The translations under genes and the position numbers were made by a program. Below the pieces are notes generated by a model. The model ran no database searches. It saw only the letters and a program-made list of their open reading frames with translations, and was not told the DNA's origin. From contig NC_087082.1 in assembly GCF_026151205.1 (NCBI RefSeq), positions 584,401 to 648,400 of the forward strand: DNA of 64,000 nt, read 5' to 3'. Below are positions 10,146 to 60,317 of this stretch, in pieces (within the stretch, counting starts at the first letter, position 1; each line of letters opens with the position of its first letter). This DNA comes from Bolinopsis microptera (taxonomy: Eukaryota; Ctenophora; Tentaculata; Lobata; Bolinopsidae).

Positions 10146-10153
10146 CCATTTTC

Positions 10154-11471: not shown

Positions 11472-11746
11472 CAAAAAGGTATAACAAATTTGGTATTGTG
11501 AAAATTCTCACAGTCTCTAGAAAACAGTGCAGGTACAAAATTTTTTTAAATCCAAGCAACTTTATTTTTATCGTGCACCCCCTATAAGAAGAAACCTAGC
11601 CAGAGTGGAAGTCGGCGCCCTCATTAAATTTTTGGAGAAAATCGCTCGCGCTCGCCAAAATTTGTTGGACCAGGACGATGTCCTAGCCTGGCAGCTCATT
11701 GCGCGTCGCAACGAGCTTCGTTGTTCTTCGACGTGCGACGAGCAAC
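11472..11746. other. Unique loop of the foldback element
   Basis: The only single-copy part of the element. It holds an 85-aa frame (+, 11527-11784, read partly into the right arm) beginning with a run of Lys/Arg-rich residues. No homology is recognised, and most likely it is not a gene. Confidence 0.4.
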
Positions 11747-13020: not shown

Positions 13021-13028
13021 CCATTTTC

Positions 13029-17823: not shown

Positions 17824-20341
17824 TCAAATAAAAATGCGCTCCGGTAGTTTCAACTCCCAGCAGCTGGGAGTTGGAAAACTGGAATTCCCGTTACTGTCGC
17901 TGTGAGAAGCCTTATTAAGTGCGCGGCGCGGCACAGTAACGCATCGCGCTACAACTCCCATGTAGATTTCTATATCCTTAGTTTTTTTATTTGTAAAGAT
18001 CATATATTTAGTTTTGCTAGTATTTAATTTAAGCCCGTTATTAGTAGCCCAATCAATTATCAAAGTCAGAATCTCATTCACCAATGCATTAAGTTGTTCA
18101 AATGTATCTGTACTTATTATTAGGTTTGCGTCGTCAGCGAAATAAATATGTTTAGCTAAATTACTAATCTGAGGAAGGTCGTTGATGTAGATTATGAACA
18201 GAATTGGTCCGAGAATGGAGCCCTGTGGTACTCCGTAGTTAAGTTTGAGGTGAGAGGACTTGCAGTTGTTGACGCTCACGTATTGCTCTCTATCGGTTAG
18301 ATATGAGTGAAACCAAGATAAAGCCAACCCCCGAACTCCATAGTGCTCAAGTTTTCTCAGAAGAATACTGCTGTCAACCATGTCAAAGGCCTTGCTGTAG
18401 TCCAATAGAAGCAGTGCTGTGACCTGCTTTTTTTTCTAGTGCCCTGTGAATATGGTTTTGGGCTTTTAGTAAAGCATGTTCGCAGCTGTGCCCAGCCCGA
18501 AATCCGTATTGAGAGTCAAATAGGATTTTCTCTGTCTTTAAGTGATCTAATAGTCGCGCTTGCATAATTTTTTCAAAGATTTTTGAGAAACATGAGAGTA
18601 GTGAGATAGGTCGATAGTTTGAAACTTCAGCACGTGACCCACCTTTGTGAAGTGGAACTACTTTCGCGATTTTCAATTTATGCGGAAACTTCCCCTGATG
18701 TAGAGACGCAGAGACTAGGCAGCTGAGCACTGGTGCAAGTATATTGCTCACTTTTTTCAGGGGAAGTATACTCATATCAGAAGTCGACTTAATCTTCAAA
18801 CCCTTAACTATTTCAATTATTTCTGATGCGGACGAATCTTCTAGATTCATGCTCCGCTGGCATTTGCTATCTTGAGTTTCTGTTACGATAGTCCTGCCCT
18901 CAGAGCATACGAGACCATTTTCTCTCTTAAGAGTCTCAGCTATATTGCAGAAATAGTCATTGAAGCTATTCGCAATTTGCTGAGAATCTGTTATCTCGCT
19001 CCCATTATAGTTAATTTTGTTTATCTTAATTTTGCCTTTTTTCTTTCTGTTTAACAAGTTATTAACCATTTGCCATTGTTTTCTGCTGTCGCTAGAATAT
19101 TTTGTAAAGTACGCGTTGTAATATTTGTTTTTGGCCTTATCCACGTGTTTATTCACAAATTTCTTCATTTTCTTGTACCTAATATCATTTTCAGTGGTCG
19201 GGTTTGTGACAAAATCTTCATAAAATTTATTTTTGCGATCACATGCGCACCGTAACCATTCTTGGATCCACGGCTTTGTGTTTTTACGGCGGCCTGGTTT
19301 ACTCTTTTTTGCCTTAATTGGGAAATTTCGGTCGTATAGTTCACTATATTTTTTATCGAAAGCCTCAAATTTTTCATCTACAGAATCATAGTTATTAACC
19401 AAGTTCCAGTCTACCGCAGAAATGTCGTTCTCGAACTTTTGGATACTGTCATCGTTTATTACTCGAGAAGACATTTCTGTTGTATCTTCTTGAAGTTTAC
19501 AACTGAGCCTATTCTGATCAACCATGATTGTGACAAAAGTTGCCAAGTGGTCAGAGATTGACTCAGAAATTACTCCCGATTTTGTAACAGCGTGGCAATT
19601 ATTGACGAAAATATGGTCAATGATTGTCGCACTGTGATCTGTGACTCTAGTTGGTCTAGATATCACAGGAGCGAATCCATGCTCTGCTAGAGTGTCCACA
19701 TACTTAGTAACAGAGTCTATTCTCCCGTAATCTAGTAGGTCTATGTTAGTATCACCGGCCAGTATGATATTTTTGTTTCGATGTCTTGCTAAGTTACGGA
19801 GGAAAATTTTTAATTGTTCAAGGAAACCATTCAAATCCCCACTTGGAGAGCGATATATATTACAGATTAACGCGTTTTTGTGCCCTTTCAAGGTAAGTTC
19901 TGCAACCAAGAATTCTCCTATCTTAGGATTATCGTGGCAACATAGAGCGCTCTTAACGTTTATGTCAGATAATTCACATAGTTTTTTGTTAACATATATA
20001 ACTAATCCTCCACCACGATTTGACGCTCTGGCGGGAGTCTGAACATACGGTGGATAGAAACCGTCTAGTTCGAGCTCCTCTCCCTGAAAAGGCAAACATT
20101 CCGTGTTACAATTTGTTTCATTGAAGTAGAGAACGTCGTATTTTGTGTATTGATCTATATTCTCCCGAAATTCTTCAATGTTCCCATTAAGTGACCTAAC
20201 GTTCAGCGAGAAAAGTTTTAATTCATACTCCTTCGTATTTTTTATTGCTTTCGCGGTATAGTATTTGCAGTTATTTAGAAGACTAGACGTTGTTTCCCAT
20301 GGATTCAAATCAGCATCAGTATCATCACGATCACCTATTTG
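17824..20341 (-). pseudogene. CR1-like LINE ORF2: APE endonuclease - reverse transcriptase, frameshifted and 3'-broken
   Basis: The frame opens just inside the end of ORF1, with no ATG nearby, and runs from about 20350 to 18383. It then continues one frame over from 18405 to 17824. The endonuclease shows LNVRSLNGN, IYRSPSG, LAGDTNIDLL, TIIDHIFVN and a final SDHLATF block. The RT shows VVPLHKGG, NYRPISLLS, QYGFRAGHS, then DYSKAFDMVD, GVPQGSILGP and the YFADDANLI active site. The break is in a run of eight A on the coding strand (18428-18435), a classic slippage site. RT stops abruptly after ..KDIEIYMG near 17955, and the thumb and 3' UTR are absent. The first ORF2 codons overlap ORF1 in the -1 frame, so ORF2 may be reached by frameshift or re-initiation. 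Confidence 0.85.
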
Positions 20342-20820
20342 ATTTGATAGGTGGTCGCGATTAAGGGGTTAAACCTAATAGTGTTACTGAGATTTATCAT
20401 GTGAAGCTGTCTAATGGAGACATCATATGCTGGGAAAATTTTTCTCAAGCATTCTTTGCAGCCTGTTGAGCCAGCAGAACATCTTGTGTGGGATAGGTTG
20501 TCACAGTAGCAACATTTGGTCATTTGTCTTACATTCCCAATTTTTGTGCAAGTGTGACATTTTTCTCGTTTATTGGAGACTGGGATTTGTATAGGCCGTG
20601 ATGGTAATAGAGGCATGACGGCGCCCACTGGAAGAATTTCTGAAATGCAGCTGTAGCAAGACCATTCTCCAGTAAGTTCAGTTATGTCGCAAGGTGTTAG
20701 GTGAGCACATTTTGGGTGATATGCCATATAACAGATACTACAAGTGATGCTTATCTTGTGTGAGACTAGGCGCTTTGTACAGGCCTTACAGCTACTTTTA
20801 ATACTTCGGATAACTACCAT
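20335..20820 (-). CDS. CR1-like LINE ORF1: double zinc-finger (PHD-type) protein
   Basis: 161 aa, starting at an ATG 14 bases before ORF2's open frame overlaps its end. Residues 10-53 carry spaced Cys/His pairs CKAC, CSIC, H..C, CYSC in PHD order (C4HC3). A second Cys/His cluster follows at residues about 88-125 (CHTC, CCYC, H..C, CKEC). PHD fingers are known in ORF1 of CR1-family retrotransposons, where they are thought to help bind nucleic acid or chromatin. The frame is intact, unlike ORF2. Confidence 0.75.
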   Translation of the reverse strand: MVVIRSIKSSCKACTKRLVSHKISITCSICYMAYHPKCAHLTPCDITELTGEWSCYSCISEILPVGAVMPLLPSRPIQIPVSNKREKCHTCTKIGNVRQMTKCCYCDNLSHTRCSAGSTGCKECLRKIFPAYDVSIRQLHMINLSNTIRFNPLIATTYQIK

Positions 20821-26490: not shown

Positions 26491-29400
26491 TTACCGTTTG
26501 GACATAAAAGCGCGGGTTATAGTTTCAGTAGCACTTCGGTCGTCACCAACTTCATCCTCACCTCCACTGTCGTCATCAGAGCTGAGCCACTCTTGTGCTA
26601 TCTTCTCTTCCAACACCACTGCAGGCAATACAGGTATAAAACATGGACCTTGAAAGTTTAAACTATTGCATTACTATATTAGTACATATAATGAAAAAAT
26701 GAAAAAAGTAAAATGTACAGGAAAATTCTGTCACTTACTTCTTTCCTTCACAAATTTAGGAGTGCTGTCACAGAGCAGTTCGATGACTCTGACCGCCGCC
26801 CACACCAGGTTTTGGAACAGGAATATGAAGAGCATTCTCGCTAACATTAGCTCCAACCAAAATCTGGACTGATCTGCCCTGGCCGGTTGGATGTAGGACC
26901 AATATCTGGGAATAAAGAGATTAGTATTAGAACGAGGGAACTGACAGCGGGCAATAATACTGAAAAATAAACAGCTGACAGTGAAAATTAATAGTAAAAA
27001 GAATGAAGGTGCATTCTCTCAACTCTGGGTTGTAAAGATGGAAAAAACAAGTTAAACACTGACTATCACGTGACTTGTATGTAAGTATAGTGCTTGTTGA
27101 GAATGGGAACGGCTTCAATGCTTCATTCGCGGTCACTAAAATAATCAATCAGCTTCTAGCAACTTCTCGACTAAATCGAAAATGTGTTTACCTGCACGTT
27201 TGGTTTGTTTGAGATCCATCAGATTCTTCACGGACAAAGTCATGGCTAGCCAGCATGAAATCCACGTAGCTGCTCCCTTCGGTCTCGTAGTTACGCTTAT
27301 ATATCATTAACGGTAACCAATCAAAAGTAAATGCTATCAAAATAGCGTTCACAAGGATGGCTATTCGGGACAGAACTTCTAGAATGTTCATCCACGTTCC
27401 TGAGTGGATGAATTAGTTAGAGGTTATAAATTAGTTTTCTTATCAACTAGGTTACTATCAAAATATCATCAACTGTTCACCGTAAAGTAAAAACTGTATA
27501 CCTTACTCGGGAATATTATGACTGGGATAAAGTGGTGGGTTTTGGAAAATTCCGCCATATTTTCCCCGGTCATTAATTTTCCCAGTCATAAATTAACCCG
27601 CTATAATGTTCCCGAGTAAGGTAAACTAAAAGTAATACATTTTGATGCTTGGTGGGTTTTGGAAAATTCCGCCATATTTTTCCCGGTCATTAATTTTCCC
27701 AGTCATAAATTAACCCGCTATAATATTCCCGAGTAAGGTACTAAATACTAAATACTAAATATTGATTTTTATACATATACCAACATATAATACATGTATT
27801 ATCTTTTGTAATACTAAAAACAGTCACCTATTCCCTCGGATCTGAAGCCGATAGGTCTACGAACCCTCTTTACGTATCTGGTAGCATCCTGACGTAACTG
27901 AGAGGTCCACAGTCAAGTTACTTGAATAAATTAAAAGCTATCATTCCAAGCTATCGTGGCGGAATTTGTCGCAATATGGTAAAAATTTACAATCACAAAT
28001 CTAAATAGCGAATTTTTTAAATGTCAGCAAGAATATTGATGTCATGATATAATTGAATACGAAAAGCAGTACAATTTAAAATTGTTTTTTAATTTTATTA
28101 GGTTATATTACCTGCCATATGTTAATAAAGAGACAAATAAGGGGAGCAAGCGGGAAAGCAGTAACGAACATAGTTAGGAAACCTGTGTGAAATTGGAGTA
28201 AAATGAACACAATAATATACAAGCATTGATGTGTGAGAATAATCACTGTTACAATTAAAATTTTATTCTTAATCTTTGTTAATGAAAAATAATTCGGCAT
28301 TTACAAACAATTGCAGCTTACCAAGCTGAATGATGTTATTGACATACTCCTGGTACATCTCTGTAGGTTCAGCAAGTTCGAAATCTTGAACATATTGAGA
28401 TCTGGAGTTTTCTGGAGATGTTAAATTGAGTTAAAAATTGTAACTTAAAATTAACAACCCAATTCTAACTGAACAATGTTGATCAAGAGTATAATGATTG
28501 AACCATATTAAGGTTTTGTTTAATAATATACTCACTGAAGTCTTCAAGATTTTGTTTGGCCATGTTTTTCCACCTTTGAGCGAATTCACAGCAGCCAACA
28601 AAAGGAGAAAGTAACTTCAACTTCAACTCCTCCTGGATCCTGTTTATATTCAGGGTTCTGATTATGTCCTTTAGTATCGGGACCAGCTGTTTTACTGACA
28701 TGATTAATATCATCTGTATTGATACCTGTGTTGTTGGTTATCAGGTAAATTATAGTGGCAGTTATTTGTCAGTACGTATATAGAAAATCATGGATCATCA
28801 AACGGTATTTCGAAACTGGGAACCGAAAAGGAGGAGAAAGACACTCTCTCTGCATGCTACCGTACTGTGGAGGAAGAGCTGCTTAAACAGAAAATAAGTA
28901 AAGCTGAAAACGCAGCCGATAGATGCAAGAACAAAGAGAGCTGGAATCTTGTTAATGAGGTCAGTGGGAGAAAGAAGAAGCCATGTGGTCTTGTAGAAGG
29001 AGGTAGTAGAGAGGGTAGATTGAGAGCCTGGAAAGACCACTTTACCAAGCTACTTGGACAACCTCCAGTAGTCCCAAACGAAGAAGTGGACATACCAGTC
29101 GTACATCCACCACAAAACATCAGTGTGGATAAGTTCACCAAGACCGAACTGGAGGAGGCTACGAAATCGATTAAAGAAGGTAAGGCATTTGGAGAGGATG
29201 GAGTTGCCCCTGAAGTGCTGAAGAGGGTAGATGTTGATGATTTGATCCTTGACTTCTGCATTAAAGCACTAGTTGATGGCGATGTCCTGACCAATGGAAG
29301 CACCTAAACATTGTGCCTGTTCCAAAGAAAGGGAATTTGACCAAAGTAGATAACTATAGAGGTATTGCACTGACATCTATAGTGAGTAAGACTCTTAATA

Positions 29401-32400
29401 AGATGATACTGAACAGGATCAAACCTGCCGTGGAAGACATCTTGAGGATCAATCAGAACGGATTCAGAGAGAGTAGGTCAACAACTAGTCATATTCTTGG
29501 CCTAAGAAGGGTATTTGAGGGAGCCCGGGATAAAGATCTGACCGCGGTAATGCTCTTCGTTGATTTCAAGAAGGCATTCGACAGCGTGCACCGTGGACTC
29601 CTCATGAAGATCCTCCTGGCATATGGAATTCCCAAGGAGATTGTAGGCTTGATACAAAGAATGTATGCAGATACATTTGCTCGTGTGATTACCGAGGATG
29701 GTCTGAGTGAAGCATTCTTCATTCTAGCAGGAGTGATGCAGGGAGACACTTTGGCGCCCTACCTATTCATAATCGTAATTGACTACATTATGAGGGTGTC
29801 CCTAGAGGGAAGGGACTTTGGGTTTACTCTACACCCTAGAAGAAGCCGTCGCTATCCGGCAGTCAAGGTCACTGATGCGGACTTTGCTGACGACCTTGCT
29901 CTTATAACAGATAGTGTTGCGGAGGCACAAGATTTCCTCAGGAGTCTGGAACTGGCGGCCAACTCAGTTGGACTCCACCTCAACGAGGGGAAAACTAAGT
30001 ACATGGGAATCAACATAAGAGATGATGATAACCCGACTCTGGTTGCTGGGAGTGGGAAGAACATTGAGAAAGTCGATGACTTCGTATATTTGGGTAGTAG
30101 AATGAAGAGTTCGGAGAAGGACTTCGAAGTGAGGAAAGCTAAGGCATGGGGAGCGTGTCACCAGATGAAGCTTGTATGGAAGTCGGATATGCGTAGAGAT
30201 CTCAAGATACGACTGTTCCTGGCTACAGTCGAGTCCATCCTTCTATATGGCTCTGAAACATGGACTGTCAGCCAGACCCTCGCAAAACGTATTGATGGAT
30301 GTTATACGAGAATGCTGAGGATGGCACTGAACATTGACTGGAAAGAGCGGCAGACTAACGCCAAGGTGTATGGACACCTCATCAGAGCATCTGATAAGAT
30401 AGCTGCACGGAGGATGAGACTCGCAGGTCATTTAGCCAGACATGAAGAACTATTGAGTCATCAACTTCTCTTCTGGGAACCCCTTCAAGGACATCGTCGA
30501 AGGGGAAGACCACATCTCACATACATTGACATCCTTCGGAAGGACACGGGGCTTGACGACAGCAAAGAGATTAACAAACTCATGCTGGATAGACAGATTT
30601 GGAAGAAGACTATTTCTGTTCGGACGCTGAAGCCGCCCTAAGTCGAGTCGAAGTCGAACCGAAAATATGCGAATAAATAAGGACCTATATAATTAAGACT
30701 CGGTGTAATTTAAAAGATTAGTGAGGTAATGCCATTACCTCACTAACTAATTACTAACTAATTACTAACTGATTACTAACTAATTACCTCACTCATGCAC
30801 CCTCCAGGAGCACAGCCCTGTATCTTCAGTGAAGTTCCGTACAGATATCTCGGGTTAGATGGCGACGTTATACTGAAATACCGTTGTTATCAACTTTTAT
30901 TTTCCCTACTCTTGCCGAAGGCAAAAAGGTCGTAGGGAATAAGTAATCGGGTTTGGATATATGAGGTGGCCCGATGGACCTGCGATGATGACAAAAGTCT
31001 GCTCCTTCGCAATATAGACCATTCCCCTAAAATTAAGTTTATAGGAAGCGTCTGTTATGCTGCGCGCGACGCTAGCCATGTGTTAATTAATTACAGTGAA
31101 ATTCCTCCTTCGCAAAGTTATTTTCCGAAATTTTCTGGATCCTTTTTTGTTGATGCGCGGCGCTGCATTGGTCAAATAAATTGTCAATTTTTACCATGCA
31201 GGAATCCCACTCATTTATAAAAAAACATAGTATGTAAATATGGTGCACTTTTTTCCAGTCACACTTTTCACTCAAAAGAATTAATGGTACAAGTACATCG
31301 TAGGGAAAATTGATCGTGCGTGGCTTAACCGCGGCGAAATTCTTGTTATATTAGGATTTAGGGGTTACAATAAATTCAGCAATGTAATTAAAGATTTATC
31401 ATTACTAAGTGGCTCATCGTACTCACTTTCCCTTGAAGAAGGCAATATAGAACAAAGTGCTGTAGTAGTTGACAAACTCAAACAGGTAAATTTTAAAAGA
31501 AAGATGATTGTCGTGATCACGCTGTGTTCTGTGATTTTCCATGTTGGTTAACTTGTTCGCTATTATCCTGTACACCTGGTAACATTATCTGTGTAACTAT
31601 GGTAACTAGTAGTGTAACTATGGTAACTAGTAGTGTAACTATGGTAACTAGTACTAGTAGTGTTGGCTAACTTGTTCGCTATTATCCTGTACACCTGGTG
31701 AAGATCAGGAAATATTCATCAAATTTTTAAACCAGTCAAAAAACGTGAGTAAATTAATGCATCAGGTATTCAGTAATGGGAAAGTGTGGTTATTATTCCT
31801 CACAACGTTGTTGACGGAATAAAGGCTAACTTTCTCGACCTAACTGAAGACTTATCTATTAAGACTCACGTATGATAGGCAGATGATAAGCGTAGCGCTG
31901 AGACTTCCCGTCACACAAATAGCTATCTCATTAGCATATTTTCTAGTAAAAGGGTTGTAATCCTTGGCCCTTTGTATTGAAAGGCTTAGCGAGTAGTTGT
32001 AGACAGTTATTGTAAGGGTCATCATAACTGCCATAGCCAGCTGAAATCAGATAAATATATATTAGAAATAGATTAAAAATAGATTTTGAAAATAGATTTT
32101 AAAATAGATTTAAAAAAATAGAAGATTAAAATAGATTTCAATGCTAGACTTTATTACTAATATAGCTACTAACAAATATAGTGACTAACTGATATATAGC
32201 TACTAACTAATATAGCTACTAACTAATATAGCTACTAACTAATATAGCTACTAACTAATATAGCTACTAACTAATATAGCTACTTACTAATATAGCTACT
32301 AACTAATATATAGCTACTAACTAATATAATAATTTTATTGTGTATTAGAGGATCAAGAAATACCTCAAACAAAACTTACGAATTATCTAACATGGATGAT

Positions 32401-33744
32401 TTAGAATTTAACTCTTTCGAATCGAAAGTCAACTAATTTTTTCAGTCCCATGGACTGGGTTTTATTTTTGCAATGATGATTTTCATAATATATAACCTGT
32501 AATACTATTCTGTATATATCTAATTTCGTTTTCCAAAAAAAACAAACTAATATAGCTACTAACTAATATAGCTACTAACTAATATAGCTACTAACTAATA
32601 TAGCCACTAACTAATATAGCTACTAACTAATATAGCGACGACGGTGAACCCCAGGAAGTATTGAGGAAGTCTGTGTAGAAAGGTTATGTGTTGTTCTCTT
32701 GTCTTCGTTACATCATTCCATCGGAACACTTTAGTTTTGGTCAGTTTGTACTTTACCCTCACTTCTGCCTGAATGCAGAGTGAACTAAGAATATCTTGAA
32801 AAATTTAAAATTCGCATGACAGGGATGTGATGATGGTGAACTCATATTAAAATTGATATTATCAATATTTCATTTAATATAGTAGTGTAACTATGGCAAC
32901 TAGTAGTGTAACTATGGTAACTAGTAGTGTAACTATGGTAACTAGTAGTGTAACTATGGTAACTAGTAGTGTTACTATGGTAACTAGTAGTGTAACTATG
33001 GTAACTAGTAGTGTTACTATGGTAACTAGTAGTGTAACTATGGTAACTAGTAGTGTTACTATGGTAACTAGTAGTGTAACTATGGTAACTAGTAGTGTTA
33101 CTATGGTAACTAGTAGTGTAACTATGGTAACTAGTAGTGTAACTATGGTAACTAGTAGTGTAACTATGGTAACTAGTAGTGTAACTATGGTAACTAGTAG
33201 TGTAACTATGGTAACTAGTAGTGTAACTATGGTAACTAGTAGTTAATGTGCCTTACCGAAGCACTCCTACTGTTAGTTGTACCCCAGGTGTGTGCTATAG
33301 TACTCTGCTGTCGCTTCCAAAACGTCACGAATATCGCTAGCCAGGCCATCATGATTATAGAAAATACTATAACTGCACCGTTGTTAGCCACACTCGTTAT
33401 CTACAATGGAGAATCAATAATTCAAAATGTTTATTACAACGAGAACTGGCGAGTACATTATTAACGATGAACAGAAAAAAGTAAATATGAATGAAATAAG
33501 AACTTCTTGATTATTACACTGGTAGTGAAGCAATAGTCTGACAAATAAGTAGCGTTGCAGGTTCCATCTATATAGCAGTCCGCACACATCAAATATTTTT
33601 CCCCGCTTTCACAAATATGCCGTGCTGTGTCAGTCCAAGTCATCTGCAGCAGACCGTATATGAAAACAGCAGTTCCTGCTATAGCAGGTATCACCAGGGA
33701 CATGTTGTAGAATCCTGGAATACACACACCGGCTTTAGTGGGGA
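26491..33744 (-). CDS. Copy A: transmembrane core and C-terminus exons
   Basis: Exons 11-23. TM1 (GFYNMSLVIPAIAGTAVFIY) is followed by the extracellular Cys-rich loop with NAT glycosylation site, TM2 (VIVFSIIMMAWLAIF) and the FWKRQQ motif. Then come TM3-TM5, TM6 after APGGCMSE (VSIQMILIMSVKQL), TM7 (EYVNNIIQLGFLTMFVTAFP), TM8 (LICLFINIWQ), the basic VKRVRRP linker, TM9 (ILVNAILIAFTFDWLPLM) and TM10 (FWLELMLARMLFIFLFQ). The last exon adds an acidic tail (SSDDDSGGEDE) and stops at 26493-26491. An LxxLL-free, unremarkable cytosolic end. The insertion history of the introns is given in separate entries. Confidence 0.88.
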
Positions 33745-40800: not shown

Positions 40801-41731
40801 AAACTTGGAACAGAAATTCTGAAAAAATAACGTTTCAAAGACATGAACACACTTTAAAAACAGTAACTATTTCTGACGTTAGTTTTTGGTTCAGAAAATA
40901 AAAGCAAAAACCTCAATTTCTATCTCGAGCCCATTCTCCCGGAGCAGGTTGATATATTCGACTCTCATGATGGCCGCTTTATCTCCCTTTGCTCCCTTCT
41001 TCAACTCCTCTATATCATCCTGATCTATCTGTCGGGGGTTTGCGTCCACTGAAGGGGAGGTGTTAGCTGGACATACCCTTCTATATACACATACATACCC
41101 TTCTATATACACATACTTGTGTAGTATGTGTATTAGTATTCTTAATACTAACAACTTTATAAAAACTTCAAGGAAACTGTAAACAGCCTGCACCAAAAAC
41201 TTGACAGAGTGTATTATTACATGTATTTAACTTATTGATTTTAAATCAAACCTAATCCATTGGAAGAGTCCATGTATTTCTTTATGGGTTGGTAGACCAG
41301 CACAAAGTCTATCTTATGGTCCTCCGACCAAGGCTCATAGTTAACTCTGTCCACTACGTCTTCCAACAACTGCAAAACTATTGTTAAATCTGTCCACTAC
41401 GTCTTCCAACAACTGCAAAACTATTGTTAACTCTGTCCACTACGTCTTCCAACAACTGTAAAACTATTGTTAACTCTGTCCACTACGTCTTCCAACAACT
41501 GCAAAACTATTGTTGAGTCTCGTATCATGTAGGGGTGGAGCATGTCGGGCTAACAGAAATACAAGAGATACAATTGTCCGGCCTAATTCGGCTATCAATT
41601 GATTGGTTTACCTGTCTGGCATTTTTTCTGAATTGTCGTCTGAGTTTCTTCTTGGCATGACTCCAAGTTCTTTGAGCGTCTGCTATACTGCACTGATCAC
41701 TTAGAGTGTCAAATGTTCCGGTTCGTGTCAT
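26491..41731 (-). CDS. Anoctamin (TMEM16) family protein, tandem copy A, 23 exons
   Basis: Exons in transcript order, from my reading of GT/AG sites and phases: 41731-41612, 41369-41252, 41066-40912, 40818-40704, 37757-37530, 35717-35482, 35319-35138, 34925-34832, 34579-34399, 34292-34161, 33744-33518, 33400-33257, 32768-32628, 32040-31870, 31575-31427, 30872-30788, 28725-28536, 28411-28322, 28182-28112, 27897-27828, 27399-27192, 26905-26739, 26618-26491. The phases chain without a break into about 1133 codons ending TAA; family members are usually 900-1100 aa. Diagnostic blocks: DFVLVY; AYPLHAGGY; QPLNIVRNYFG; the Cys-rich loop MCADCYIDGTC..LSDYC; TFWKRQQ; FVNYYSTLFYIAFFKG; CAPGGCMSE; FVTAFPLAPLICLF; VLSRIAILVNA. 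Anoctamins are ten-TM dimeric Ca-activated chloride channels or lipid scramblases. Which activity applies here is unknown. Exon 3 could start 18 bases later (41048). Confidence 0.92.
27501..27738. mobile_element. TA-flanked MITE with internal duplication, in copy A intron
   Basis: CCTTACTCGGGAATATTAT at the left and its inverse at the right, each beside TA (27499-27500, 27739-27740). A third terminus at about 27604-27622 shows that a 122-bp element was tandemly extended. Each half carries GGTGGGTTTTGGAAAATTCC. Absent from the matching intron of copy B, so it inserted after the gene duplication or was lost there. Confidence 0.8.
28789..30641 (+). pseudogene. Reverse transcriptase of RTE-like LINE, one frameshift
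   Basis: Before the break: a linker and FGEDGVAPEVLKR. After it: PVPKKGNL, NYRGIALTS, NQNGFRESRS, FVDFKKAFDSVHR, GVMQGDTLAPYLF, the FADDLALI active site (Phe for Tyr), LNEGKTKYM, VYLGSRM and a C-terminal RRMRLAGHLARH..GRRRGRPHLTY block. The endonuclease is missing. The break at about 29286, in GATGTCCTGACC, looks like loss of one C, which would otherwise read on through DQWKHLNIVPVPKK. The end of the RT is intact, so little decay has occurred. Confidence 0.85.
28789..30690 (+). mobile_element. 5'-truncated LINE inside a copy A intron, antisense to the gene
   Basis: A forward-strand LINE fills the intron between the exons at 30872-30788 and 28725-28536. The frame is open from about 28789 to 29307 and resumes in another frame from 29313 to 30641. 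Copy B has a 98-bp intron at this place, so the insertion is younger than the duplication. No target duplication could be fixed. Confidence 0.85.
30718..30790. repeat. 11-bp repeats derived from the exon-16 (30872-30788) donor
   Basis: On the gene strand the donor GAG|GTAATTAGTTA is followed by about five copies of GTAATTAGTTA, ending in an inverted second copy of the junction at 30721-30743 (GTGAGGTAATG-C-CATTACCTCAC, a perfect palindrome). Confidence 0.8.
30899..31309. mobile_element. Possible inserted element in copy A intron
   Basis: TTTTCCCTAC at the left and GTAGGGAAAA at the right bound about 410 bp that the corresponding copy B intron (110 bp) lacks. No clear target duplication and no gene. 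Classification open. Confidence 0.4.
31590..31710. repeat. 21-bp repeats and partial exon duplication next to an acceptor
   Basis: Three or four copies of AGTAGTGTAACTATGGTAACT lie between the exon ending at 31575 and a second, partial copy of that exon's start (31663-31700) with its own acceptor CACCAG. On the gene strand the spare copy encodes VYRIIANKL again. Copy B has about four 21-bp units at 53318-53405 but no spare exon start. Confidence 0.75.
32163..32637. repeat. 16-bp repeats containing the exon-12 family donor (two blocks)
   Basis: Unit on the gene strand GCTATATTAGTTAGTA, at 32545-32637 and 32163-32337. The first copy is the real exon end: ..GCTATATTA|GTTAGT at 32628. Each unit therefore repeats the donor. 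Copy B has a 111-bp intron with no such array. Confidence 0.85.
32883..33245. repeat. 21-bp minisatellite, ~17 copies, in copy A intron
   Basis: Unit AGTAGTGTAACTATGGTAACT with alternating A/T variants. It begins 12 bases from the donor of exon 33400-33257. It stays open as MVTSSVT repeats only because 21 is divisible by three; not a gene. The same unit occurs in a different intron of both paralogs (31.6 and 53.3 kb). Confidence 0.95.
34098..34147. repeat. Poly-C tracts
   Basis: Two C runs separated by TAGCATGTGACTCAC, in the intron before exon 34292-34161, next to its donor. Copy B has a G run on the same strand in the corresponding intron (54883-54900). Confidence 0.9.
34161..41731 (-). 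CDS. Copy A: cytosolic N-terminal (dimerisation) exons
   Basis: Exons 1-10 of copy A. Exon 2 holds the conserved KIDFVLVYQP strand that opens the anoctamin dimerisation domain. Exon 3 ends with a VEYINLLRENGLEIEIE segment matching the family's helix-strand before the nucleotide-length loop. Exons 7-10 carry TKDNLLAR..IRAPF, GHDDPEFYNRSER, MVFRILENPE, AYPLHAGGY and then QPLNIVRNYFGSVTAMYFAY leading to TM1. All are soluble and basic or acidic in turn, as expected for the cytosolic side. Copy A has one exon more than copy B here (37757-37530). Confidence 0.85.
34786..34826. repeat. (AGT)n microsatellite at a donor site
   Basis: On the gene strand the donor ATG|GTAATTACTAC runs straight into (TAC)n. 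Confidence 0.9.
35876..36617. repeat. 52-bp minisatellite, ~14 copies
   Basis: Unit TTTGTAAAGACTTAAATAAG + GGTAATGTTAATTACTGCGG + TCTTTAGGTTAC. It lies in the copy A intron upstream of exon 35717-35482. GGATAATG and GGGTAATG variants alternate in blocks. It does not include exon sequence. Confidence 0.95.
37530..37757 (-). CDS. Extra exon unique to anoctamin copy A
   Basis: 228 bases with acceptor AGTGTCAG and a consensus donor GTAAGT, phase 1 on both sides, so it can be included or skipped without changing the frame. It encodes about 76 residues: an acidic, Cys-containing stretch (AECEECDEMPEG) then a Pro/His/Ser-rich stretch (EPAPPRHSTHPPRLYP). No membrane segment. Copy B has only a 126-bp intron here. 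It may be an alternative cytosolic insert or a chance exon; only the matching phases and donor support it. Confidence 0.5.
38196..40170. repeat. 10-bp satellite, ~190 units, with interspersed ACTGATCACAC
   Basis: Unit ACTCACACAA. ATACTGATCACAC units appear at intervals, and blocks of about 480 bp (for example 39356-39480 and 39836-39960) repeat almost exactly, giving higher-order structure. On the anoctamin strand every unit reads TGTGAGTTTG, containing GTGAGT, the same hexamer as the real donor at 40703. Confidence 0.95.
40171..40703. other. Intron remainder
   Basis: Unique sequence between the 10-bp satellite and exon 40818-40704, with three copies of a 29-base TCTGCACTATCATATTCTAT-type unit at 40323-40402. 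Confidence 0.6.
41341..41515. repeat. 43-bp repeats containing the exon-2 acceptor of copy A (4 copies)
   Basis: On the gene strand each unit reads ..AATAGTTTTGCAG|TTGTTGGAAGACGTAGTGG.., that is intron end plus exon start. Only the last copy continues into the exon body at 41369. One copy has TACAG for TGCAG. The unit is not a multiple of three, so use of an upstream acceptor would shift the frame. Confidence 0.9.
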
Positions 41732-50453: not shown

Positions 50454-53400
50454 TTACCGTTTAGCAGGTTCCCCCTCAAGCCACTCTTGTGCAATCTCTT
50501 CTTCTAGCACCACTAAAGGTAAACGTAATATTTACTTTTAGTGTGTTACTGTGTTTACCACACTAATGTTTAACACACTTAATTAACGGATCTGTATCCA
50601 TTTATAGCGATAATCAGAGCTTAGTCTAGATATTTATACGTCATCACTCTCAAAATTAGCAAAAGAATAATATATTTTAAAGAGTAGGATAAAAACGCCA
50701 GTTTTCTAAAATGTCATATAAGGTATGGACAACATTTCTCCATCAGTATAGGGTAAGGAAATTACTTACTTCTTTCCTTCACATATTTAGGAGTACTACC
50801 ACGACGTAGTTCAATCATCTTTACTGCGCCCAACACCATGATTTGGAACAGGAATATGAAGAGCATTCTCGCTAACATTAGCTCCAACCGAAACCTGGAC
50901 TGATCTGCCCTGGCCGGTTGGATGTAGGACCAATATCTGGGAATAAAGAGATTAGTATTAGAACGAGGGAACTGACAGCGGGCAATAATCCTGGAAAATA
51001 AACAGCTGACAGCGAGAATGAATAGTAAAAAGAATGAAGGTGCATTCTCTCAACGATGGGTTGTAAAGATGGAAAAAACAAGTTAAACACTGACTATCAC
51101 GTGACTTGTATATAAGTATAGTGCTTGTTGAGAATGGGAACGGCTTCATTCGCGGTCACTAAAATAATCAATCAGCTTCTAGCAACTTCTCGACTAAATC
51201 GAAAAAGTGTTTACCTGCACGTTTGGTTTGTTTGAGATCCATCAGATTCTTCACGGACGAAGTCATGGCTAGCCAACATGAAATCCACGTAACTGCTCCC
51301 TTCGGTCTCGTAGTTACGCTTATATATCATTAACGGTAACCAATCAAAAGTAAATGCTATCAAAATAGCGTTCACAAGGATGGCTATTCGGGACAGAACT
51401 TCTAGAATGTTCATCCACGCTCCTGATAAAAAAGGTGCATTAGCTTTTTGTCACCACCTATATCCTCAGTTCTAATCCTCAGTATTCTACAGTAACTCAC
51501 CTATATCCTCAGTTTTAATCCTCAGTATTCTACAGTAACTCACCTATATCCTCAGTTCTAATCCTCAGTATTCTACAGTAACTCACCTTTATCCTCAGTT
51601 CTAATCCTCAGTATTCTACAGTAACTCACCTATATCCTCAGTTTTAATCCTCAGTATTCTACAGTAACTCACCTTTATCCTCAGTTCTAATCCTCAGTAT
51701 TCTACAGTAACTCACCTATATCCTCAGTTCTAATCCTCAGTATTCTACAGTAACTCACCTATATCCTCAGTTCTAATCCTCAGTATTCTACAGTAACTCA
51801 CCTATATCCTCAGTTCTAATCCTCAGTATTCTACAGTAACTCACCTATACCCTCAGTTTTAAATCCGATGGGTCTACGAACTCTCTTGACATATCTCGTA
51901 GCGTCCTTGTGTCGCTGACAGGGGGGGGGGTCATGTTACAAGTTCATAGTTAAGATTTTAGAGCAAATCGAATGCTATAATTTCAAGCAATCATGGTGGA
52001 CATAAAGTCCCTATCGTTATCAGTGCTCCTTAATATGATCACCATGTGCATGAGAAACTATGGTGCCATTTCAGTAGACGAAAGAGGTATCCTTACCTTC
52101 GATAATTGTGAAAAAGATGGCATCAGTGGGAAATGGCTATTTTTTAATGAAAGCAAGAGATTATTGAATACGAAAAGCAGTACAATTTAAAATTGTTTTT
52201 TAATTTAATTAGGTTATATTACCTGCCATATATTAATAAAGAGACAAATGAGGGGAGCTAGCGGGAAAGCAGTAACGAACATAGTTAGGAAACCTGTGTG
52301 AAATTGGAGTAAAATGGACACAATAATATACAAGCATTGATGTGTGAGAATAATTACTGTTGCAATTAAAATTTTATTCTTAATCTTTGTAAATAAAAAA
52401 TAATTCGGCATTTACAAACAATTGCAAAACCAACTTACCAAGCTGAATGATGTTATTGACATACTCCTGGTACATCTCTGTAGGTTCAGCAAGTTCGAAA
52501 TCTTGAACATATTGAGATCTGGAGTTTTCTGGAGATGTTAAATTGAGTTAAAGATGTTAACTTAAAATTAACAACCCAATACTAACTGAACAATGTTGAT
52601 CAAGAGTATAATGATTGAACCATATTAAGGTTTTGTTTAATAATATAACAAATTGCTTATACTCACTCAAGTCTTTAAGATTTTGTTCTGCCATGTTTTT
52701 CCACCTTTGAGCGAATTCACAGCAGCCAACAAAAGGAGAAAGTAACTTCAACTTCAACTCCTCCTGGATCCTGTTTATATTCAGGGTTCTGATTATGTCC
52801 TTCAGTATCGGTACCAGCTGTTTTACTGACATGATTAATATCATCTGTATTGATACCTGAGTTGTTTTATTCGTTATCTAAACAAGCAGGGAGGTTATAA
52901 CCAGATGAACGCATGGCTGATCTGATTCAGAGAGAAGACTTTAAAAGGAGTTACCTCGCTCATGCAGCCCCCAGGAGCGCAGCTCTCTATCTTCATTGAA
53001 TTGCCATATACATACCTCGGGTCTGCTGGCGACGTTACACTGAAATAGTATGTATATCATCAATGTCTGATTCAAAGTTCAAACGAGACTTAAAATCAAT
53101 TCAGCAATGTAAAAGATATATCATTACTAAGTGGTTCAGCTCATACTCACTTTCCCTTGAAGAAAGCAATATAGAACAGAGTGCTGTAGTAGTTGACAAA
53201 CTCAAACAGGTAAATTTTAAAAGAAAGATGATTGTCGTGGTCACGCTGTGTTCTGTGGTTTTCCCTGTCCGTTAACTTGTTTGCTATTATCCTATACACC
53301 TGGTAACATTATCTGGTAGTGTAAATATGGTAACTAGTAGTGTAACTATGGTAACTAGTAGTGCAGCTATGGTAACTAGTAGTGTAACTATGGTAACTAG

Positions 53401-54731
53401 TAGTGTATCCGATTCATTATAATGTATCCAACTTTTAAACAATGCATCAACTAATCTGTACTACGAAAGTTAAATCTCGGTCCTCATTTCGCTGTTATGA
53501 CAGAATTCCTTACTGAAACTGAAACATAACGGGATCTGGGGGACGGGCCCTTGTGTAAAATATTAACCTAAAACTAATTTATTATATTACTCAACACTCA
53601 CGTATGATAGGCAGATGATAAGCGTAGCGCTGAGACTTCCTGTCACACAATTAGCTATCTCATTAGCATATTTTCTGGTAAAAGGATTGTAATCCTTGGC
53701 CCTTTGTATTGAAACGCTCAGCGAGTAGTTGTAGACAGTTATTGTGAGGGTCGTCAGTGTAGCCATTGCCAGCTGCAATCAAGAAAAGGAGTTATAAAAT
53801 CTTAATTTCTGTAAATTATGAAAAGCATTTAAATAAGTTTGCCAGATGGGGTTGGTGTATCAGAAATAGTCATTTGAACTTACAAATATAGCGACGAAAG
53901 TGAAGGCTTGGATGTATTTGGGAAGTCTATGGAGAAAGGTCATGTGCTTCTCTCTTTTCTTCGTAATTTTGTTGTACTTGTATCGCAACACGTTTGTATT
54001 GGTCAGTTTGTACTTCACCCTCACTTCTGCCTGAACGCAGAGTGAACTTAGTATATCTTGCAAAGTGTAAACATCACAATCTGACTTCCAACAGAGATGA
54101 TGAGCTCACGCAGCTCACATTAACAAACTGATATGAATATCAATATTTCTTGAAGTCAGCTGCCTTACCGAAGCGCTTCCACTGTTAGTTGTACCCCAAC
54201 TGTGCGCTATAATACTCTGCTGCCGCTTCCAAAACGTCAAGAACATCGCTAACCAGATCATCATGATTATAGAAAATACTATAACTGCACCGTTGTTAGC
54301 CACACTCGTTATCTAGAACAGAGAATCAATAATTCAACATCATCACGATGAGGGCTTCAGTTTATATCATTAAAGCATTTACAGCGTCTAACGTATCCTG
54401 TCTAAAATTATTACTGGTTGCACAAACCAAAAAATGTAAAGATTCAGTATTATAATGATTAATTATACAATGAAAGGTGAATGAATGTAATGTTTGATTA
54501 TTACACTGGTAGTGATGCAATAGTCTGACAAATAAGTAGCGTTGCAGGTTCCATCTATATAGCAGTCCGCACACATCAAATATTTTTCCTCGCTTTCACA
54601 AATATGCCGTGCTGTGTCAGTCCAAGTCATCTGCAGCAGACCGTATATGAAAACAGCAGTTCCTGCTATAGCAGGTATCACCAGGGACATGTTGTAGAAT
54701 CCTGGAATACACACACCGGCTTTAGTGGGGA
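50454..54731 (-). CDS. Copy B: transmembrane core and C-terminus exons
   Basis: Exons 10-22, compactly spaced with introns often of about 110 bp, against 0.5-2 kb in copy A. TM segments, Cys-rich loop (MCADCYIDGTC), APGGCMSE, AFPLAPLICLF and VNAILIAFTFDW are all present. TM9-TM10 exons are nearly identical to copy A. The last exon is short (MVLEEEIAQEWLEGEPAKR) and lacks the acidic tail of copy A. Confidence 0.88.
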
Positions 54732-57700
54732 CTGGCTTGGTAATTGGTATTACTATTAAAGTGATACATCTACTACAAAACGTTCAGACATGTATTTATA
54801 GATTTATTTAGTTGTTTCAGAAGAATGCATAATTTTGAAGAAGTGCCAAGAGTAGGTATGTAGGTTGTCTATTTGCTAGTATGTGGGGGGGGGGGGGGGG
54901 TACACTACAAAAAGGCAAAAAGTGTAAAAAAGTGTAGTGTACTTACCGATATAAGCGAAATACATGGCAGTACCAGAACCAAAGTAGTTTCTCACGATGT
55001 TGAGGGGTTGGTACTTCAAATTCATCTTGGAAGAGCTCCAAAAGTACCGCAGTAACTGTCTGGGATTGTCTATCTGTTCTGAGGGCGAGGAGAGAGAGCT
55101 GTTACTGCTGATCTTGCCGGAAATGAAACCAACTGTTATCATAATCTGATCTTTCAGAGTAAAAAGTTAAGAGACAAGTGTCATACCGATGTTGATCTCA
55201 CTCCACTTTTGTTTTTTTCCAGAGACATCACTTCTAATCTTATACCCTCCAGCATGTAGCGGATATGCTGTTTCAAAACACCCCTCTCGGTACATATCGC
55301 TCAGCTTATAATCTTTATCGTCATCTAATTCTGGGCTTTCACTTAATGAGTTTAACTTTCGATATTTCTTTTGTTTTTCGTCATCTGTCTCTGGGTTTTC
55401 GAGAATCCTGAATACCTGTGAGAAACATAGTTGCATGTATAGCTTTTAAGACGAAAAGCTAGAATTTTTCACTTATTTTTAAATGATATATTCCGATTAA
55501 AAACTCCTTATGAATTTTACCATTAACGCTCGCTCTGAAGCGGTGTAAAATTTAGCAGGATCGTCGTGACCGAGAAACTGTTTTCCTTTGGATACCCTGA
55601 ACGGCGCTCGAATGGCTCTGTGATGGAGAAATGTCGGTGAGTTGATATTATATATTATATCAATTATATATAAACTAATAGCCTGTTCAAACCAGGCTAC
55701 ATAACATGAACACTTTGTTGTAACTTGCATGAAAAGCATTCATATGCTTGCTTTTAAACTGAATCATATGGCCGATAAGAATATCGAGATTCGAGTCATA
55801 CATTTTAATGAACATTCTTTACAGTCTTTGGATTCAGATATCTTCAGAATTACTTAGATATTCAACAAGAACCTGATCAGTGGATTGTCTTTAGTTAACT
55901 TAAGCCTGGGATCGTGCCCATATAAGGCATCAAAGATGAAGTTCTCTATTTTGGTAATCCATTTCTTGCTGTGCCATTTGTTTTCAGAGATAAGCTGTAT
56001 GAACGCATCTGACTTTTTGTACTCTTTGTACTTCTTCTTCAACTGAATTCATCAATTCGATCAGACTCACAACAGCAAGCGAGTGTATAATAATATATCC
56101 ATATTTAAAGAATCAATTCTGACTCATTAATATTAAGAATAAATATCTGAAATCACCTGCGCTTTTAATTTTGTTTCGAAGTCCTCCTCCCCATCATGAG
56201 ATTTTGGCTTGATCTTGCGATACATAAAATCCGTCGCTGATTTCAAGGTCGGAACACACCTAGATGGAAGGAATAATGTCCTATAAGAACCTTCTATATC
56301 ATCATGTTCTGGTGGAGGTGGTAGTTCGTAGAGACTCTCATTGTACTTGGCTATCATTCTGTCCACCGCCTTCCCGTGTTTCAGGTGCAGAACAGATCCT
56401 GGGACAGATAACAGATTATAGACAGAACATTTTAGGAGATAAAAGATTAGATATTAAAGGATCATGAATCATCTTGTATGCTCATTTGCTGATCCTTTTC
56501 AAAATATTCCTAACTCTCACTCACCTAAGGGTGGCTCAACTGGTTTCATGAGCAGGAACTTTTCAGCCCAAAAGTCCATAGCTGTATTGGTTCCCCATAT
56601 TTTTATCGCTCTATACTCCTCAAACTTGGAACGGAAATTCTGGAGAATGTCTTAAAATTATGGGGGGGGGGGGGGGGGGGGGGGGGGTGGTTAAAATAAC
56701 CTTTTTTAAGACACTCTGCTATGCAGATAAAATCAAAGATTGAAAGATTGAAAGCGTGATCTCCGATTTGGAAACATTCCGACTCTACAACTCATGAACT
56801 GCTACTATATATACACGCTAATGTTCCGACTCTACAACTCATGAGCTAATGGCTAAATATTCCTTATCTTAAGAAGTAAGAACTAAGAAAATAAGACCAA
56901 AAACCTCAATTTCTATTTCAAGGCCATTTTCCCGGAGAAGCTTTATGTACTCAATTCTCATGACGGCTTGTTTGTCTCCTTCCTTCCCTTTCTTCGACTC
57001 CTCATAGTCCTCCTTATCTGTTCGTCTGGGATTAGGATCCCCTGAGGGTTTGTTAGCTGAAAACTTCTCAACCGTTTGTTGTATAGTGTTTGAACCAAAT
57101 ATTATTTTGCCAGCAAGCAAAACTTAGAGCTTGCTTTAAAACATATATCTAAAGTTTCACGTGTTTGGATATTGTATTTGCTGATTAGAATCTAACCTGT
57201 GGTGAGTGTAGCTGTGTTGTGTCTTACAGCTGCTGTACTAACCTGTAGTGAGTGTAGCTGTGTTGTGTCTTACAGCTGCTGTACTAACCTGTAGTGAGTG
57301 TAGCTGTGTTGTGTCTTACAGCTGCTGTACTAACCTGTAGTGAGTGTAGCTGTGTTGTGTCTTACAGCTGCTGTACTAACCTGTAGTGAGTGTAGCTGTG
57401 TTGTGTCTTACAGCTGCTGAACTAACCTGTAGTGAGTGTAGCTGTGTTGTGTCTTACAGCTGCTGTACTAACCTGTAGTGAGTGTAGCTGTGTTGTGTCT
57501 TACAGCTGCTGTACTAACCTGTAGTGAGTGTAGCTGTGTTGTGTCTTACAGCTGCTGTACTAACCTGTAGTGAGTGTAGCTGTGTTGTGTCTTACAGCTG
57601 CTGTACTAACCTGTAGTGAGTGTAGCTGTGTTGTGTCTTACAGCTGCTGTACTAACCTGTAGTGAGTGTAGCTGTGTTGTGTCTTACAGCTGCTGTACTA

Positions 57701-60317
57701 ACCTGTAGTGAGTGTAGCTGTGTTGTGTCTTACAGCTGCTGTACTAACCTGTAGTGAGTGTAGCTGTGTTGTGTCTTACAGCTGCTGTACTAACCTGTAG
57801 TGAGTGTAGCTGTGTTGTGCCTTGCAGCTGCTGTACTAACCTGTAGTGAGTGTAGCTGTGTTGTGTCTTGCAGCTGCTGTACTAACCTGTAGTGAGTGTA
57901 GCTGTGTTGTGTCTTACAGCTGCTGTACTAACCTGTAGTGAGTGTAGCTGTGTTGTGTCTTACAGCTGCTGTACTAACCTGTAGTGAGTGTAGCTGTGTT
58001 GTGTCTTACAGCTGCTGTACTAACCTGTAGTGAGTGTAGCTGTGTTGTGTCTTACAGCTGCTCTACTAACCTGTAGTGAGTGTATCTGTGTTGTGTCTTA
58101 CAGCTGCTGTACTAACCTGTAGTGAGTGTAGCTGTGTTGTGTCTTACAGCTGCTGTACTAACCTGTAGTGAGTGTAGCTGTGTTGTGTCTTACAGCTGCT
58201 GTACTAACCTGTAGTGAGTGTAGCTGTGTTGTGTCTTACAGCTGCTGTACTAACCTGTAGTGAGTGTAGCTGTGTTGTGTCTTACAGCTGCTGTACTAAC
58301 CTGTAGTGAGTGTAGCTGTGTTGTGTCTTACAGCTGCTGTACTAACCTGTAGTGAGTGTAGCTGTGTTGTGTCTTACAGCTGCTGTACTAACCTGTAGTG
58401 AGTGTATCTGTGTTGTGTCTTACAGCTGCTGTACTAACCTGTAGTGAGTGTAGCTGTGTTGTGTCTTACAGCTGCTGTACTAACCTGTAGTGAGTGTAGC
58501 TGTGTTGTGTCTTACAGCTGCTGTACTAACCTGTAGTGAGTGTAGCTGTGTTGTGTCTTGCAGCTGCTGTACTAACCTGTAGTGAGTGTAGCTGTGTTGT
58601 GTCTTGCAGCTGCTGTACTAACCTGTAGTGAGTGTAGCTGTGTTGTGTCTTACAGCTGCTGTACTAACCTGTAGTGAGTGTAGCTGTGTTGTGTCTTACA
58701 GCTGCTGTACTAACCTGTAGTGAGTGTAGCTGTGTTGTGTCTTACAGCTGCTGTACTAACCTGTAGTGAGTGTATCTGTGTTGTGTCTTACAGCTGCTGT
58801 ACTAACCTGTAGTGAGTGTAGCTGTGTTGTGTCTTGCAGCTGCTGTACTAACCTGTAGTGAGTGTAGCTGTGTTGTGTCTTACAGCTGCTGTACTAACCT
58901 GTAGTGAATGTAGCTGTGTTGTGTCTTGCAGCTGCTGTACTAACCTGTAGTGAGTGTAGCTGTGTTGTGTCTTGCAGCTGCTGTACTAACCTGTAGTGAG
59001 TGTAGCTGTGTTGTGTCTTGCAGCTGCTGTACTAACCTGTAGTGAGTGTAGCTGTGTTGTGTCTTGCAGCTGCTGTACTAACCTGTAGTGAGTGTAGCTG
59101 TGTTGTGTCTTGCAGCTGCTGTACTAACCTGTAGTGAGTGTAGCTGTGTTGTGTCTTGCAGCTGCTGTACTAACCTGTAGTGAGTGTAGCTGTGTTGTGT
59201 CTTACAGCTGCTGTACTAACCTGTAGTGAGTGTAGCTGTGTTGTGTCTTACAGCTGCTCTACTAACCTGTAGTGAGTGTAGCTGTGTTGTGTCTTACAGC
59301 TGCTGTACTAACCTGTAGTGAGTGTAGCTGTGTTGTGTCTTACAGCTGCTGTACTAACCTGTAGTGAGTGTAGCTGTGTTGTGTCTTGCAGCTGCTGTAC
59401 TAACCTGTAGTGAGTGTAGCTGTGTTGTGTCTTGCAGCTGCTGTACTAACCTGTAGTGAGTGTAGCTGTGTTGTGTCTTACAGCTGCTGTACTAACCTGT
59501 AGTGAGTGTAGCTGTGTTGTGGTCTTACAGCTGCTGTACTAACCTGTAGTGAGTGTAGCTGTGTTGTGTCTTACAGCTGCTGTACTAACCTGTAGTGAGT
59601 GTAGCTGTGTTGTGTCTTACAGCTGCTGTACTAACCTGTAGTGAGTGTAGCTGTGTTGTGTCTTGCAGCTGCTGTACTAACCTGTAGTGAGTGTAGCTGT
59701 GTTGTGTCTTACAGCTGCTGTACTAACCTGTAGTGAGTGTAGCTGTGTTGTGTCTTACAGCTGCTGTACTAACCTGTAGTGAGTGTAGCTGTGTTGTGTC
59801 TTACAGCTGCTGTACTAACCTGTAGTGAGTGTAGCTGTGTTGTGTCTTACAGCTGCTGTACTAACCTGTAGTGAGTGTAGCTGTGTTGTGTCTTACAGCT
59901 GCTGTACTAACCTGTAGTGAGTGTAGCTGTGTTGTGTCTTACAGCTGCTGAACTCTGGGAGGTTCTTTCCACGGGTTTGTAGACCAGCACAAAGTCGATA
60001 TTTTTATTCTTTTCAACTGACCAAGGCACATAGTTCAAGTTTCCTACTGCATCTGCCACCAACTGAAAATAATAAGTAAGCATTACAACACTGTACTAAC
60101 ACTAGGTAGGTAACACGCCACAACTGAACATTCCCAGTGAGCGGGGTATTGATATTACCGCAACTTAGTGTTTTACAGCAAATTCTGGTAATTAATATTT
60201 AGATCTGCGATTTGACTGAAAAGTATTTCTAATAAAATTTGCCTTTTTGTAATTTTGTCTGAGTTTTCTCCATCTTTGAGCTGCACTTATGGTGTCCGTA
60301 TCTGATACCCCTGCCAT
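50454..60317 (-). CDS. Anoctamin (TMEM16) family protein, tandem copy B, 22 exons
   Basis: Exons in transcript order: 60317-60243, 60062-59912, 57056-56905, 56639-56525, 56398-56157, 56042-55873, 55617-55521, 55415-55187, 55078-54947, 54731-54505, 54312-54169, 54030-53884, 53772-53602, 53299-53151, 53039-52955, 52856-52667, 52528-52439, 52293-52223, 51914-51845, 51422-51215, 50936-50770, 50512-50454. Phases chain into about 1046 codons ending TAA. Many exons have exactly the length of their copy A partner (115, 132, 227, 144, 171, 149, 85, 190, 90, 71, 70, 208, 167), which supports both models. Protein blocks match copy A; differences are a shorter N-terminus and C-terminal tail, no extra exon after exon 4, and a 16-codon insert in exon 8 (DDEKQKKYRKLNSLSESPE). 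The exon-1 donor would be a GC site (AAAAAG|GCAAAT), the only non-GT donor. Membrane channel or scramblase by family. Confidence 0.92.
51437..51850. repeat. 43-bp repeats containing the exon-19 donor of copy B (~10 copies)
   Basis: On the gene strand the unit contains ACTGAGGATATAG|GTGAGTTACTG. The true exon end at 51845 is the first such junction; the rest run on into the intron. Copy A has a single junction here (27828) and no array. Confidence 0.92.
53318..53405. repeat. 21-bp repeats in copy B intron (~4 copies)
   Basis: Same unit as at 31.6 and 32.9-33.2 kb (AGTAGTGTAACTATGGTAACT), beside the acceptor of exon 53299-53151. Confidence 0.9.
54947..60317 (-). CDS. Copy B: cytosolic N-terminal exons
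   Basis: Exons 1-9. MAGVSDTDTISAAQRWRK opens the protein, and NIDFVLVYKP is the dimerisation-domain strand in exon 2. Exon 2 ends with SSAAVRHNTATLTT, residues that lie wholly inside the first unit of the 46-bp array, so the exon's own end has been recruited from, or has seeded, the repeat. Exons 5-9 carry KAVDRMIAKYNES, LTKDNPLIR, AIRAPF, MVFRILENPE, AYPLHAGGY and QPLNIVRNYFG as in copy A. Confidence 0.85.
56660..56687. repeat. Poly-G tract
   Basis: Run of about 27 G broken once by T, next to the acceptor side of exon 56639-56525 in copy B. A run of this length may have the wrong count in the assembly. Confidence 0.9.
57196..59955. repeat. 46-bp minisatellite, ~60 copies, each with a splice donor
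   Basis: Unit on the + strand: ACCTGTAGTGAGTGTAGCTG + TGTTGTGTCTTACAGCTGCT + GTACTA. On the anoctamin strand each unit contains CACTACAG|GTTAGT, identical to the exon-2 donor at 59912. On the + strand each contains TACTAAC followed 36 bases on by TCTTACAG, a branch-point and acceptor-like pair. Variants (CTTGCAG for CTTACAG, GTATCTG, one extra G near 59521) cluster in runs. 46 is not a multiple of three. Confidence 0.95.

Follow-up and report, generated by a model that had tools for sequence, protein, structure and literature searches.

A 60-unit tandem array across an exon-intron boundary in an anoctamin gene copy of Bolinopsis microptera

An anoctamin gene copy of the ctenophore Bolinopsis microptera, referred to as copy B, contains 60 tandem units of 46 bp that start in exon 2 and extend into intron 2. 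Judging from the sequence, we read the array as a passive, recently expanded boundary minisatellite ('mirage') that would be spliced at its exon-proximal site, and assign this reading a probability of roughly 0.7. It is favored because the paralogous copy E has a single junction and aligns with copy B on both sides of the array, and because the junction expected from the founding duplication is found in unit 55. Furthermore, only donor 1 in copy B and acceptor 4 of an array in copy A leave the frame open, splicing of a second array in copy B at its first donor gives an unbroken anoctamin segment, and arrays at other genes as well as the mirages of amphioxus are of the same kind. The copy B array is a fresh example of a known oddity, not a new device.

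The analyzed stretch of DNA, referred to as the window, is 64,000 nucleotides long and covers positions 584401-648400 of its contig in an assembly of 264.65 Mb. The features are listed below in window positions, with a slash marking the splice junction.

60243-60317, minus strand: exon 1 of copy B, donor AAAAAG/GCAAAT versus CAAGCAG/GTGAAT in copy E
59912-60062, minus strand: copy B exon 2, 151 nt long if it ends at donor 1, placed from sequence, Pfam Anoct_dimer and homology to copy E
57192-59954, minus strand: 60-unit array, unit length 46 bp (47 bp in a single unit), from TRF and direct parsing
57426, minus strand: unit 55, the sole GTTAGTTCAGCAG, which is the junction expected from the founding duplication
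57196, minus strand: last donor, unit 60; the intron sequence behind it matches that immediately behind the lone copy E donor
56905-57056, minus strand: exon 3 of copy B
51455-51862, minus strand: second donor array of copy B, about 9.5 units of 43 bp, starting in the exon at 51914-51845 that ends ...RRPIGFKTEGIG/GTGAGT
41340-41514, minus strand: array of the exon-2 acceptor junction in copy A, four units of 43 bp; the junction is single in copy C

Structure of the array and its paralogues

TRF reported a period of 46, 60.0 copies and 98% matches for the array, and direct parsing gave 60 units with donor G positions running from 59911 to 57196 at a spacing of 46 throughout, except for a single 47 at unit 10. 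Each unit comprises 38 nt resembling the end of exon 2, the donor and the start of intron 2. A preliminary description of this DNA had noted about sixty near-identical 46-bp units with about 38 nt of coding exon end and the exon-2 donor, and both points are borne out by the parsing, the latter also by comparison with copy E. Its position for the donor, 59912, is that of the final exonic base, while the GT itself starts at 59911. The motif CAG/GTTAGT is intact in 59 of the 60 units and AG/GT in all 60; the last unit reads CACCACAG/GTTAGA. The mean identity of the units to the consensus is 99.0%, with 39 of 59 being identical to it (unit 10, which has an extra base, was excluded). At the edges, the first unit equals the consensus and the last one has private changes. 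An extra GT inside the unit is seen as GTAAGA in 46 units, the other 14 having GCAAG.

On the opposite strand, the array contains TACTAAC 58 times, TCTTACAG 46 times and TCTTGCAG 13 times. The branch-point and acceptor motifs described earlier for this strand are thus present, but TACTAAC is the reverse complement of GTTAGTA and is therefore not independent evidence of acceptors. Antisense splicing was dropped as a candidate, as the case for it consisted of motif content that is mostly forced by the sense donor.

The identity of copy B as an anoctamin (TMEM16) gene follows from homology to both the dimerisation and the transmembrane domains. Paralogues on the contig of the window include copy A, which is located within the window, copy C at about 668-684 kb and copy E, which lies at 7.25 Mb. 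Further PF04547 matches were obtained near 699 kb as well as on additional contigs, the overall list comprising at least 53. In copy E, the junction is unrepeated, GCAGCTAAAG/GTTAGATTCTAATC, and intron 2 is 143 bp long. The alignment of copies B and E flanks the array at 88% and 90%, reaching B position 1358 and resuming at 4103, with 2744 bp of copy B between the two aligned blocks. Since copy E keeps a single junction and its 143-bp intron, an existing exon-intron boundary appears to have been multiplied in copy B. The suggestion that a junction was duplicated holds in this form; intron gain, which had been proposed along with it, does not, as copies E, A and C have the intron at this very position and lack the array. 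The exon-2 end of copy B (59912-59949) also includes 27 nt, or nine in-frame codons, that are absent from copy E, and a source for these nucleotides just before the exon-2 donor was looked for and not found.

The simplest founding event, we infer, would be a tandem duplication of a 46-nt segment reaching from the exonic TTCAGCAG to the intronic GTTAG, in which a 2-nt AG overlap was used, AG being present at both breakpoints. This model predicts the junction GTTAGTTCAGCAG, of which unit 55 has the sole example; the remaining internal junctions of the array read GTTAGTACAGCAG (56) and GTTAGTAGAGCAG (2). Slippage or unequal exchange could then have enlarged and homogenised the array.

When the second array of copy B is spliced at its first donor, the resulting peptide matches Anoctamin-1 without a gap at the joint (2.7e-12) and Pfam Anoctamin (PF04547) at 4.5e-12, which is above the cut-off. 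Copy E shares this array, broken by about 480 bp of other sequence, and copies A and C have a single junction here. Array copy number differs among the anoctamin paralogues, and at least 3 of the 12 arrays in the window (period at least 20, at least 4 copies) cross a junction.

Elsewhere in the window, an inverted duplication is located amid GC-rich short repeats (10123-13056) and carries near-identical frames on opposite strands (10712-10960, plus; 12212-12460, minus). Long frames that by eye resemble non-LTR reverse transcriptases were observed at 5323-7893 (minus), 18383-20368 (minus) and 29277-30641 (plus), the last of which sits inside copy A.

Reading frames and the choice of splice site

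With exon 1 assumed to end at its altered donor (AAAAAG/GCAAAT), exons 1-3 of copy B are open for 126 residues if exon 2 ends at donor 1. All of the other donors (59 of 59, donors 2-60) lead into a TAG just past donor 1 (GGT TAG) and yield a product of 76 residues. The choice of donor can therefore not diversify the protein, which contradicts the earlier claim that the product varies with the donor used and removes the proteome-diversifying device built on it. Pfam Anoct_dimer (PF16178) matches exons 2, 3 and 4 joined at donor 1 at 9.5e-7, above the cut-off. Likewise, acceptors 1-3 of the copy A array give stops after 63 residues and acceptor 4 alone stays open. The only workable site in copies B and A is, as predicted from these frames, the one that adjoins the intact exon.

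If exon recognition runs from the acceptor of exon 2 to the closest donor, donor 1 would be used and units 2-60 would leave with the intron, and any use of another donor would result in the same truncated product, that is, in waste rather than variants. Exon definition hence predicts the exon-proximal site in both copies, and intron definition the opposite end. Measured from the last donor, intron 2 of copy B is 140 nt long, which restores the ancestral short length (143 in copy E), and intron definition would therefore favor the last donor, at the loss of the protein. Copies B and A are natural tests of site choice by the spliceosome, and the interest of the locus lies mainly in this contrast.

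Alternatively, the array may dampen expression, in that several donors are used and array length tunes the amount of functional mRNA via the same premature stop. Besides donor 1, there are 59 donors with an equal core, every one of which leads to the same stop product, and the short 140-nt intron after the last donor could favor the wrong end. We consider damping unlikely, however, since boundary arrays in amphioxus are reported, in the excerpts consulted, to occur without disturbance of regular splicing (PMC3087553, PMC3902484), and since similar arrays are present at genes of unrelated function, for which tolerance is a better fit than regulation.

Copy B is probably functional, or was so recently. 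Its 20 coding segments contain zero stops, and the comparison with copy E over 987 codons yielded a dN of 0.0437, a dS of 0.0756 and a dN/dS ratio of 0.58, below 1 (Fisher p 0.004). The ratios were 0.28 for copies B and A (1 of 20 segments missed) and 0.26 for copies B and C (2 of 20 missed). The exon-1 donor of copy E is replaced in copy B by a site that fits the frame only if it serves as a weakened GC donor, and copy B may rely on it; this alteration and the B-E ratio of 0.58 may point to weak constraint. A gene in decay, in which the array is tolerated as the gene no longer matters, would be consistent with the change from GT to GC and the loss of neighboring bases at this donor, with the 27 extra nt in exon 2 and with the B-E ratio, but is improbable given the uninterrupted coding segments, the Fisher test, the lower ratios in the comparisons with copies A and C, and the occurrence of boundary arrays at other genes.

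Recursive splice sites consist of juxtaposed AG/GT, and an AG/GT is also present at each unit boundary of the array. If each of these acted as both acceptor and donor in a ratchet, units could be removed stepwise and every path would lead to the same mRNA, as a unit runs from GTTAGT to CACTACAG, which is a GT-AG segment, and the donor-1 junction is restored whenever a whole number of units is removed. Such a ratchet is very unlikely since 46 nt would be a very short intron and the tract before CACTACAG is T-poor by eye, unlike the acceptors TTATTATTTTCAG and AAGTTTTCAG of the gene. The AG/GT sites would here, unlike recursive sites, be a by-product of tandem copying, and their acceptor side looks weak by eye. 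An array copy number produced by the assembly is also highly improbable: long near-identical arrays are hard to assemble, and the draft genome of amphioxus had one mirage wrongly assembled according to an excerpt of the report (PMC3087553), but the units of copy B carry scattered private variants and a 1-bp insertion in no repeating order, and single- and multi-copy junction states differ cleanly between the paralogues.

Comparison with known systems

In the portions of the amphioxus papers that we consulted, mirages are boundary-spanning tandem repeats at the 5' or 3' side in the globin genes BflGb6 and BflGb9, and RT-PCR suggests that they do not interfere with regular splicing (PMC3087553); mirages are also described at PGBD5 and TnC (PMC3902484), and the Adh3 mirage has a unit length of 10-72 bp (PMC3087553, PMC3902484). 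The defining features are a unit that spans the boundary, occurrence at both 5' and 3' sites, AG/GT signals, homogenised units with the edges excluded, undisturbed splicing, and length or somatic instability. In the anoctamin copies, the unit spans the boundary, donor arrays are present in copy B and an acceptor array in copy A, and the units contain AG/GT. The arrays resemble those of amphioxus in being splice-junction repeats with AG/GT in the units, copies that appear homogenised and an overlapping unit length. They differ in size, with 60 units here compared to 3 and 6 in the two BflGb6 haplotypes, in the host animal, here a ctenophore, and in that the paralogues display the state before and after for both splice sites of one exon, donor and acceptor.

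There is also a likeness to intron gain through tandem duplication of segments that contain AGGT, as in the Rogers model and the potato RdRp case (PMC4974935), in that the duplication puts GT and AG at the two ends of every unit. Unlike intron gain by that route, the intron pre-exists in the unrepeated paralogues, and has been lengthened and not created. The array has in common with ordinary intronic VNTRs and minisatellites that it is a homogenised intron array in a genome rich in such arrays, whereas its first unit is coding exon including the predicted working splice site. No paper on such arrays in ctenophores was found among the titles and abstract beginnings listed from one open-licence library. 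The novel elements are the host lineage, the run of 60 donors, the before-and-after paralogues and the frame tests, which leave the exon-proximal site as the sole workable one in both copies.

Arrays at splice junctions of other genes

To the assembly-wide matches, which are labelled by L numbers, we assigned classes by eye and not blind. The donor-motif arrays surveyed were 13 among the matches listed (5 plus 8), with flanks read for 12, one of these on a single flank. Six of the eight with units of at least 28 bp cross a splice junction, again among the matches listed:

L012: donor array, sushi-like exon
L015: donor array, Img2-like exon
L017: donor array, ADAM-like exon
L011 and L019: donor arrays, two unclassified exons
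L014: acceptor array, copine-like exon

The other two (L013, L023) cross no junction by eye, and a crossing was observed in none of the four donor-motif arrays whose units are shorter or composite. In L011, L014 and L013, the listed donor motif is antisense to the gene. Pfam matches of the exon pieces did not reach the curated cut-offs (sushi 0.022, reprolysin 6.1e-4, copine 1.5e-4, Img2 1.1e-5, and dynein 9.3e-4 for an exon among the controls below), and the pieces from L011 and L019 had no Pfam match. The ADAM-like case is firm: a first-donor splice gives a continuous metalloprotease-disintegrin segment (5e-12 in a search of solved structures), to which Pfam Disintegrin matches at 3.4e-6, below the cut-off. 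The Img2-like peptide had no reliable match in the solved-structure search.

For comparison, 14 of the 28 control-motif arrays among the matches listed were fetched, mostly with units of at least 28 bp, and L028 (2.2 copies) was excluded. Three of the remaining 13 cross a junction, namely a dynein-like acceptor (L030), a donor (L051) and a probable acceptor (L048). The L051 exon is one that we take to be RNase-H-like. One array was ambiguous (L031), two were coding repeats (L029, L053) and in seven no crossing was seen, with one edge unreached in some. The difference between 6 of 8 donor-motif and 3 of 13 control arrays has a Fisher p of 0.03 for these by-eye, non-blind classes of listed matches; the copine-like L014 was also listed by a control motif and not counted there, and its addition would bring the controls to 4 of 14. 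A random sample of eight 10-kb segments (one with 2797 N) contained 7 arrays of period at least 20 and at least 4 copies; flanks were read for 2 of the 7, and neither crosses a junction.

The presence of boundary arrays at other genes of this genome suggests that mirages are more than an amphioxus curiosity. Counting against the mirage reading of the copy B array, three junction arrays out of six in the two gene copies correspond to a P of only about 0.09 at the junction density found here, assuming about 42 junctions per copy. A further reading, that minisatellites in this genome arise preferentially at splice junctions, with a boundary-tied mutational process seeding arrays that survive through exon-proximal splicing and lengthen introns with decoy sites, is doubtful. 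If it were true, exon definition could be read from DNA, and mirage formation would be genome-wide in a second, distant animal phylum.

We also counted motifs across the genome. Triples of AGGTRAGT at 23-53 bp spacing gave 2793 matches versus 215 for the reversed motif, and 510 versus 12 at 43-44 bp spacing, with single sites numbering 19244 versus 15618. Triples and single sites of permuted motifs were 1098 and 13618 for GTAGRGAT, 246 and 10634 for TAGRGATG, 906 and 21664 for GAGATRTG, and 2278 and 16756 for GTRTAGAG. A 13-fold genome-wide enrichment of donor arrays was rejected on these counts: the donor motif is the top one of six, yet its rate is only 1.07 times that of the next permutation, and large arrays dominate the counts.

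Some other repeats were observed along the way. The 33- and 39-bp tandem repeats at L029 (913-1049) and L053 (593-1306) are each within one long open frame and are probably coding repeats, unlike the boundary arrays. A 21-bp minisatellite unit, TAGTAGTGTAACTATGGTAAC with its rotations, recurs at unrelated places of the window (31591-31653, 32880-33243, 53316-53407) and at L005 (8971-9031) and L028 (866-938), and is a dispersed tandem repeat. Finally, TAATTTGAGGT, which equals the end of a ctenophore spliced leader as given in an excerpt of its description (PMC8527503) followed by a donor GT, occurs 651 times in the whole assembly versus 204 for the reversed sequence, a difference of about threefold.
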